Part shown: piece after piece, positions 13,650 to 15,950 of the stretch | Layout: each line of letters starts with the position of its first letter | Numbering within the stretch: the stretch's first letter is position 1 | From: Arcobacteraceae bacterium | GTDB taxonomy: Bacteria; Campylobacterota; Campylobacteria; Campylobacterales; Arcobacteraceae | Length of the DNA stretch: 36,196 nucleotides | Direction: 5' to 3' | Assembly (NCBI GenBank): GCA_029939245.1 | Contig: JAOZTH010000002.1 | Coordinates: 8,224-44,419 of the forward strand | Program-made: the position numbers and the translations under genes | The notes under the pieces: generated by a model | Database searches by the model: none | What the model was told of the DNA's origin: nothing | Seen by the model: the letters and a program-made list of their open reading frames with translations, nothing else

Positions 13650-14054
13650 ATGGATATATTATTTACGATGGTGCCTATGGGTGTGGTTTTGACTATGGCT
13701 GTGTTTTTGTATTTTGAACACAGAGCAATACAGGCAAACAAAGCTTCAAAAGCACAGACAGACGATCTTAGTCAAAAGCTAGAAAACTACAACACATCAA
13801 ACAATGCAGGACTGTTTGGTCTTGGCTCATATATTATCACATTGATATTGGCTTTTAGTTCTTTTGATCCATCATATGGGTTAATCCATGCTTTGTTGTA
13901 TATATTTATCACTACATTTGTAGGGTCTGTGATCATCTTTGTTATCAAGTTCAAAAGAAGCATATTGGTCAAGGTATTTGCTGCATTTTTGTATGGTGTT
14001 CCACATATGGTAGCATCTACTTTTGCTTTTTTGACTACTTATTTGATAATATAA
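13650..14054 (+). CDS. Hypothetical membrane protein (possibly frameshifted at its 3' end)
   Basis: SD AAGGAG before ATG; several hydrophobic segments; coding-like +1 frame continues past the stop. Confidence 0.75.
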   Translation: MDILFTMVPMGVVLTMAVFLYFEHRAIQANKASKAQTDDLSQKLENYNTSNNAGLFGLGSYIITLILAFSSFDPSYGLIHALLYIFITTFVGSVIIFVIKFKRSILVKVFAAFLYGVPHMVASTFAFLTTYLII

Positions 14055-14183
14055 CGACAAAGAGACACAACTACTTGCTGTAGTCACAAAGCTTTTAGGA
14101 ACTTTGTTTGGCAACTTGTTGATAATAATACAAAATTGCTTTAAGTTTTATTTGATATTGGGGCTGACCTCAAATTTACCTAT

Positions 14184-14215
14184 AAAAAGAGATAGCAAAT
14201 ATGCTATCTCTTTTT
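14184..14215. terminator. Rho-independent terminator hairpin, probably bidirectional
   Basis: AAAAAGAGATAGCA-AATA-TGCTATCTCTTTTT: perfect 14-bp inverted repeat with A/T tracts on both sides, between convergent genes. Confidence 0.9.
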
Positions 14216-14232
14216 ATTTTGCTTGATTTGTA

Positions 14233-14397
14233 TTAGCGATGTGATTTGATCAACAATCTAGTGATCATCAAGTTAAATTTGAAAAATCTAACTATCTGCC
14301 ACAAAATACAACTTCTCATAAATTTTGTAAACTTATTTGGTATCGGTGGGAAATATGCTTGTTCATATGCTTTTCTATTCTCTTGTTTTTCTATCAT
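14233..14397 (-). CDS. Small basic hypothetical protein (54 aa) downstream of SQR
   Basis: Read by eye: MIEKQENRKAYEQAYFPPIPNKFTKFMRSCILWQIVRFFKFNLMITRLLIKSHR*; ATG preceded by AAAAAGGAC; ends just before the terminator hairpin; below the ORF-track length cutoff. Confidence 0.75.
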   Translation of the reverse strand: MIEKQENRKAYEQAYFPPIPNKFTKFMRSCILWQIVRFFKFNLMITRLLIKSHR

Positions 14398-14430
14398 TTT
14401 TTGTCCTTTTTGTTTTATTTCTCATCATAA

Positions 14431-14450
14431 AAGATGAAATATTTCATCTT
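14431..14450. other. Perfect 20-nt palindrome between SQR stop codon and the small downstream ORF
   Basis: AAGATGAAATATTTCATCTT; overlaps the SQR stop region and can form an mRNA hairpin. Confidence 0.85.
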
Positions 14451-15924
14451 ATTCTGGTATTATTGACCAAAATGGTCTCATCTTTGCTTTCCATATAAAT
14501 GCAAGATGAAGCAGGTATTTGATCCAATGTCCGCTTAGCCCAACTTCACCTGTAGTCAACGACTGGTCTCTACCTGTGTCTGGATACTTTGCATAATCCG
14601 GCACGACAGGATATACTGTCATAGCAGCCGCTGACCCACTAAACATACCATTGCCTGTGCTAGCTACACATGCAGCACCCATCTCAGACATTTTGGCTGT
14701 GTGTGTAGGTTTGTCGGATTTGCCTTTGATCATATCACATATAGAGTTTGCTACCGCTTTTCCCATCATAGCACTAGGCATACCAGTTCTTGGTGGTGTC
14801 GGTGTTATCATAGTGCCGTTTGGCGATTTCATCGGTTTAGATATAGGATGTGGCGGTGCAAATGCTATGCCACATGCAAATATATTTTCATATGTAGGAT
14901 TTTGCAATGTGCTTGGCCAGTCATCTGCACTCCACTCTTCAAATGGTTTCGCCGTATAGTCCGCATCTACTTTCATCATACCATTTGCTGCAAAGATAGT
15001 ATCTGTAATATCACTGCCATCTTTGGCATAAGCTTTTAGTCCTACACCTGCAAATGGAGGTATAAGCATAGCGAAATCAAATGTTTGTTCATGCATAGTG
15101 CCGTCAAGCATCTCATAATGAACTTTGCCTGATTCTACTTTGTTTACATGTGTTCCTACTATCCATCTCAACCCTCGCTCTGCAAATATTGATTCTGTAA
15201 AAATTTTAGAGTGTGTCCTATATCCGCCTCTATCTAGGTGCATAGCACCCATACCAAAATCACCGATAAACTGTTCGTTTGATATCCATATCATCTCTGC
15301 TTTGTTTCTCACACCTGCATGTCTCAATGTATGCTCAACATTGAAAATATATTCAAATGCCGCGCCCTGACAAGTACACATACCGTGTCCTGTGCCTATC
15401 AAAAATTGTTTTTTTGGTGCATCTGCTGGTGAGTTTTTCATCACTTCTATGAGTTTTTGTAGCTCTTGGTTTGCATGCACCGCATGATCAGCTGAGCATA
15501 CAGAGACAGTATGTTCTCCTATAGTAGTGCCTTCACCTAGACCTTCAGTTGCACCAAAGTTAAGTTTGGGTCCTGTTGCGTTGATCAGATAATCATACTC
15601 AATCTCGCTTATAGTTGCATCGCCTTTGGTGGACTCTATAGTTACAAAAGGTTTATCCGAACTATCTTTGCCCTGTGGATGTATAGACAATGCTTTTGCT
15701 TGATGATATACGATACCTGCCTTTTTGTACACAGGATCTAGATTAAATGTAACATCCTTTTTGCTCATCTCTCCTACTCCTACCCATATATTTGATGGTA
15801 TCCAATTCCAAAGTTTGTTTGGTGTTATCACCACTACCTCGTGCTTTTTGCCTAGCCACTTAGCGGCAAACGATGCGGCTGTGTGTCCTGAAACACCGCC
15901 ACCCATCACTACAATTCTTGCCAT
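14449..15924 (-). CDS. Sulfide:quinone oxidoreductase family FAD-dependent oxidoreductase
   Basis: RIVVMGGGVSGHTAASFAAKWLG dinucleotide fold; LWNWIPSNIWVGVGEM; GTGHGMCTCQGAAFEY Cys motif; ATG at 15924 preceded by AAAAGGAG. Confidence 0.85.
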   Translation of the reverse strand: MARIVVMGGGVSGHTAASFAAKWLGKKHEVVVITPNKLWNWIPSNIWVGVGEMSKKDVTFNLDPVYKKAGIVYHQAKALSIHPQGKDSSDKPFVTIESTKGDATISEIEYDYLINATGPKLNFGATEGLGEGTTIGEHTVSVCSADHAVHANQELQKLIEVMKNSPADAPKKQFLIGTGHGMCTCQGAAFEYIFNVEHTLRHAGVRNKAEMIWISNEQFIGDFGMGAMHLDRGGYRTHSKIFTESIFAERGLRWIVGTHVNKVESGKVHYEMLDGTMHEQTFDFAMLIPPFAGVGLKAYAKDGSDITDTIFAANGMMKVDADYTAKPFEEWSADDWPSTLQNPTYENIFACGIAFAPPHPISKPMKSPNGTMITPTPPRTGMPSAMMGKAVANSICDMIKGKSDKPTHTAKMSEMGAACVASTGNGMFSGSAAAMTVYPVVPDYAKYPDTGRDQSLTTGEVGLSGHWIKYLLHLAFIWKAKMRPFWSIIPE

Positions 15925-15950
15925 AATCACTCCTTTTATAAATGTGTGCT

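Follow-up and report, generated by a model that had tools for sequence, protein, structure and literature searches.

Sulfide:quinone oxidoreductase (SQR) takes electrons from toxic hydrogen sulfide. It is a main route by which these electrons reach respiration and photosynthesis, yet it is treated as a single-polypeptide enzyme. In the window, the 36,196-nt stretch of DNA from an Arcobacteraceae MAG of ~1.5 Mb that was analysed here, an SQR gene is directly followed by a small ORF for a basic peptide of 54 aa. The question is whether this ORF is a gene and, if so, whether its product works together with SQR.

The peptide gene and its SQR neighbour

The features of the locus are as follows.

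14449 to 15930, minus strand: SQR gene, 491-493 aa (PDB best match 3hyv; invariant alignment columns; Foldseek 3hyv)
14398 to 14448, minus strand: intergenic gap of 51 nt between the SQR and peptide genes (sequence)
14403 to 14411, minus strand: Shine-Dalgarno-like AAAAAGGAC of the peptide gene (sequence; 5 nt ahead of the ATG)
14233 to 14397, minus strand: peptide gene, 54 aa (ORF and translation; conservation; dN/dS; predicted helices)
14182 to 14217, read on the minus strand, listed by the program on the plus strand: hairpin and T-run, which probably terminate the SQR-peptide unit
13650 to 14054, plus strand: convergent ORF for a hydrophobic protein of 134 aa (window)

The original prediction had described the 54-aa ORF with a good Shine-Dalgarno sequence and a strong terminator. 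The ORF was recovered with the same sequence, coordinates and strand, and the SQR stop codon lies 51 nt upstream on that strand. AAAAAGGAC, at 14411-14403, is 5 nt from the ATG, and AAGGA/AAAGGAG-type sites also precede the peptide start in most relatives. A hairpin with a T-run does follow the gene, and only its distance was corrected, from 18 to 15 nt after the stop codon. This hairpin is nearly symmetric and thus usable by both strands. Among 194 distinct pairs, the gap from SQR to peptide had a median of 39.5 nt (range 5-267). The probable SQR start is the ATG at 15924; the listed ORF opens at the GTG at 15930. The convergent 134-aa ORF had no useful-score match in Pfam or NCBIfam, and it was rejected as a part of the SQR unit because it is not conserved beside SQR elsewhere.

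Comparison with relatives confirmed that the peptide gene is real and under strong purifying selection. The median dN/dS was ~0.12 among relatives, and the window copy gave 0.12 and 0.08 against its two nearest relatives. The peptide family is typically ~48-60 aa long with a net charge of about +7 (+8 in the window), and P20, R28, W33, Q34, R37, F38 and N42 are near-invariant. A C-terminal K-S-H is usual, and in the window peptide it is K51-S52-H53. Two helices are predicted, a short one at 22-29 and a long amphipathic one at 31-53. For the C-terminal half, which had been proposed to hold an amphipathic segment at the membrane surface, the analysis found an amphipathic stretch at 31-53, which is not a classical transmembrane helix. 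A transmembrane peptide is not favoured, since the maximum 19-residue hydropathy was 1.14 in the window, with a family median of 1.32.

The gene had been called unlisted, and this was also true of the family libraries. None of 31 family members matched Pfam, the 6 members tried against NCBIfam gave no useful score, and annotated members carry the RefSeq label 'hypothetical protein'. The peptide profile had no match in the PDB. A partner variant that has GGHGGTR close to its end and the core ..NP(L/I)IQFF.(Y/F)(L/I)YL..K.L.. was seen at three loci (L288, L390 and L393). Two of these (L390 and L393) were missed by the profile, which suggests that the HMM captures only part of a wider family.

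We then assigned the SQR by fold and length. Its best PDB match was the Aquifex aeolicus SQR 3hyv, both by sequence (E 1.1e-38) and by Foldseek (TMt 0.85), and the fold is the type I fold. C145, C187 and C421, which align with the three redox/flavin cysteines of the Aquifex enzyme, are invariant in the SQR alignment. The quinone pocket is represented by A420, V422 and F478, and A420 falls at the alignment position of Ile346, which belongs to the quinone pocket in Aquifex (PMC9666304). The fold, the three catalytic cysteines and the quinone pocket are common to the type I SQRs of A. aeolicus (3hyv) and Acidithiobacillus ferrooxidans (3sz0, 3t31). Type I SQRs, however, are single chains with two C-terminal amphipathic helices (PMC9666304), whereas the window SQR has a single C-terminal helix (465-482), ends 15 residues beyond the quinone-site Phe F478 and has a separate peptide. 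As calculated from chain lengths and published positions (PMC9666304), type I chains run ~40-45 residues past this Phe, which gives room for the second helix. Type I membership was rejected because this second helix is absent from the same chain.

Type III, suggested by an NCBIfam match, was also rejected, as the score was far below the cut-off. None of the NCBIfam SQR models matched this clade above cut-off, so the clade often carries no annotation beyond 'FAD-dependent oxidoreductase'. Type VI (SqrF) is a short chain of ~44 kDa, and the SQRs of this clade have 485-493 aa. The SqrF of Thiocapsa roseopersicina also has one C-terminal helix (PMC9666304), but its catalytic cysteine pattern is different and no peptide partner is described there. 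Allochromatium vinosum is reported to have only types IV and VI, type IV being the only non-type-VI SQR listed for it (PMC3368242). The clade occurs in Allochromatium and its chains exceed the type VI length, so that type IV (SqrD) is the probable assignment, which takes in length, PDB neighbour and occurrence. The organism range and length of SqrD (Alvin_2145, Chlorobaculum CT0117) also fit the window SQR.

The peptide is inherited, duplicated and lost with SQR

The peptide is conserved, and it is co-inherited, co-duplicated and co-lost with SQR. Within the family (104 genomes), significant peptide matches were found in 15 genomes and SQR in the same 15, with the peptide always directly downstream. 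A 15-sequence profile found the peptide in 201 of the 399 genomes of the order, and the SQR search found 193. Both were present in 190 genomes, SQR alone in 3, the peptide alone in 11 and neither in 195. Of the 3 genomes with SQR alone, 2 were explained by contig ends, and the remaining one (G110) has a divergent ORF at the expected place, ending ...FRLIVICFKILSIMRKGH. The 11 genomes with the peptide alone were accounted for by contig breaks, by noise matches that contain stop codons, or by relics. In the two relic genomes (G239, locus L170; G297, locus L172), the SQR gene has disappeared and the peptide gene survives only as a frameshifted remnant between an NrfD-like gene and thioredoxin, so loss of SQR is followed by decay of the peptide. 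The gene order in one family is NrfD-like gene, SQR, peptide and trxA.

A Campylobacteraceae contig (L147) carries a tandem SQR-peptide-SQR-peptide arrangement. Its second peptide is strongly diverged and ends in RRNERDIPV instead of KSH, and this second pair is possibly neofunctionalised. At another locus (L290, G566:C8:64600-66200), the first ~250 residues of SQR are joined in-frame to the last ~28 residues of the peptide, a relic that apparently arose by internal deletion.

The pair was also found beyond Campylobacterota, in Gallionellaceae, Rhodocyclaceae, Chromatiaceae, Zetaproteobacteria, Alphaproteobacteria (Marivivens), Ignavibacteria, Cytophagales and one Planctomycetota MAG. All 71 SQR carriers among 210 Chromatiales genomes had the peptide. 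Peptide copy number matched in Chromatiales genomes with several complete SQRs, and even a 44%-identical SQR has the peptide alongside. In the phylum Bacteroidota, SQR was present in 97 of 396 genomes with the peptide at every locus read, and an SQR clade of this phylum that is 38-44% identical to the window SQR has it in a shortened form. In this second SQR clade (L281-L286, L292 and L293), the partner has ~38 aa and the core YQ(L/F)WRF..LN(I/L)KILKAVHH. At 100 further loci, the HMM detected the peptide in 97, 2 had divergent forms and 1 was cut. The genes flanking the pair vary by lineage, so the linkage is not a by-product of general synteny. Lack of conservation, lack of linkage to SQR and stop codons in sister strains, named beforehand as the outcomes that would speak against the peptide, were all looked for, and the linkage was near absolute across phyla.

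Covariation and predicted docking

The covariation between the two proteins was investigated via direct-coupling analysis of 282 SQR-peptide pairs, covering 141,819 residue pairs with an effective sequence number of only ~67. The coupling of SQR A387 with peptide L49 ranked 6 of 141,819 with a z of 14.4, compared with a shuffled maximum of 4.5-5.9. It outranked nearly all couplings within SQR itself and disappeared on shuffling, a procedure that largely strips phylogeny; a tree-based co-change test answers this in part. This test was added because the within-cluster shuffle is weak, one cluster holding 258 of the 283 sequences. On the SQR tree, 9 of the 12 changes at 387 coincided with a change at peptide position 49 (Bonferroni 5e-8), most often G to A in SQR together with V to I/L in the peptide. 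Co-change was also detected for M388-L48 (4e-8), T239-T24 (2e-6), R234-Y15 (4e-5), and A420-N42 and A420-L48 (0.03 each).

SQR position 462 and peptide position 37 were E/R in 273 pairs, T/Q in 5 and D/K in 3. Judged from these alignments, E462-R37 behaves as a putative ion pair that is swapped as a unit.

The SQR and peptide genes of the window share a reading frame by chance, as do about one third of the loci, so natural in-frame read-throughs could be modelled. In the AlphaFold2 model of the window-lineage read-through, the peptide core had pLDDT values mostly of 85-92 and the linker was below 50, with a pTM of 0.88. The Allochromatium read-through showed the same pattern with a pTM of 0.87. 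These models are artificial single chains, which favour contact, and they were assessed by their confidence values only. Taken together, covariation and structure prediction strongly indicate that SQR and the peptide are in physical contact; the covarying residues suggest the exact pose, with the C-terminal helix of the peptide on the quinone side of SQR and its N-terminal arm beside SQR 227-239.

Role of the peptide and comparison with known systems

We propose, with a probability of roughly 0.75, that the peptide is a dedicated small subunit of one SQR clade, docked by the quinone site and completing the quinone/membrane face. A small membrane or quinone-pool partner of SQR had been put forward in the original prediction, and the near-absolute linkage, the covariation and the structure prediction support such a partner beside the quinone site. 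SQR and the peptide would probably be expressed from one transcription unit. An extended N-terminal arm of the peptide may run along SQR at ~227-245, and helix 31-53 would pack on the C-terminal domain beside the quinone pocket, at 387/388, 420, 462 and 477, held there by the E462-R37 ion pair. The basic face and the K-S-H end would probably complete the membrane-facing wall and the quinone entrance. In this arrangement, the peptide may contribute to membrane attachment, give shape to the quinone channel and, through His53, possibly take some part in quinone protonation. A stronger form of the proposal, in which the clade is an obligate two-subunit SQR whose ~50-aa second chain walls the quinone channel and whose K-S-H tail acts in quinone binding or protonation, is tentative, and we hold it at somewhat short of even odds. 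A type VI SQR without its C-terminal helix is still membrane-bound and active (PMC9666304), so that a helix of this kind may be dispensable.

Other explanations were weighed against the same data. That the ORF is spurious or an unrelated neighbour gene might be thought from its short length and its absence from family libraries; with a frame conserved over phyla, a dN/dS of ~0.1 and no peptide where SQR is absent, this can practically be dismissed. An assembly or stability factor that binds the nascent C-terminal domain of SQR, helps to insert FAD or to deliver SQR to the membrane, and afterwards departs or stays sub-stoichiometric, would equally yield strict linkage, co-loss and covariation at the interface. 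The contacts, however, are concentrated on the quinone side of the mature enzyme, and the ion pair is kept through swaps, as in a lasting subunit. Some lineages would also be expected to have the gene of a free chaperone away from that of its target, and no such case was seen. We consider an assembly factor unlikely, though it is the strongest of the competitors.

The SQR-bound peptide may instead serve mainly as a tether to another membrane partner, such as bc1, a reaction centre, an oxidase or polysulfide reductase. Contacts with SQR alone do not obviously account for the basic, conserved C-terminal face (KSH), and the locus with an NrfD-like gene, SQR, peptide and trxA in one family also fits a tether. 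The hosts, on the other hand, include phototrophs, iron oxidisers, Campylobacterota and Bacteroidota; their electron acceptors are very different, so that no single partner is obviously common, and the neighbouring genes vary. This makes a tether quite improbable. A peptide docked next to the quinone site might obstruct that site as readily as complete it, as an inhibitor or regulator acting as a brake on quinone reduction would do. Some lineages should then have lost the brake and kept SQR, and among several hundred cases no intact example turned up, which leaves a regulator more improbable still.

The preferred small subunit might do, as the product of a separate gene, the work of the second C-terminal helix in type I SQRs. 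When the fused family is aligned by profile with type I SQRs, the alignment ends before the C-terminal helices, and homology of the peptide to the second type I helix was not supported, as there was no profile signal. The likeness is functional analogy only, since sequence homology was undetectable. In the open-access literature searched, no second subunit of SqrD and no small subunit of any SQR is described; an earlier mention of the ORF in subscription papers is possible.

If the small-subunit reading is correct, a universal unannotated second chain would alter how this SQR clade is expressed, assayed and modelled, and could account for weak or inconsistent results when SQR is expressed by itself. 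Under the stronger form of the proposal, the single-chain models now in use would be incomplete for a major SQR clade that is spread widely among phototrophic and chemolithotrophic sulfur oxidisers. In metagenomes, the peptide could also mark the clade by its sequence, and it would be another micro-subunit, here completing a quinone site in a flavoprotein.

CydX and CcoQ are comparable small proteins of ~30-60 aa that are encoded beside the large-subunit gene, are easily missed and support a membrane oxidoreductase. They are transmembrane helices on integral membrane enzymes, whereas the peptide is amphipathic and would sit on a monotopic flavoprotein; library scans gave no sequence relation between them. 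As a lead only, YjlC-YjlD (integrative model 9a63) likewise combines an NDH-2-like membrane flavoprotein of the SQR fold with a small partner.
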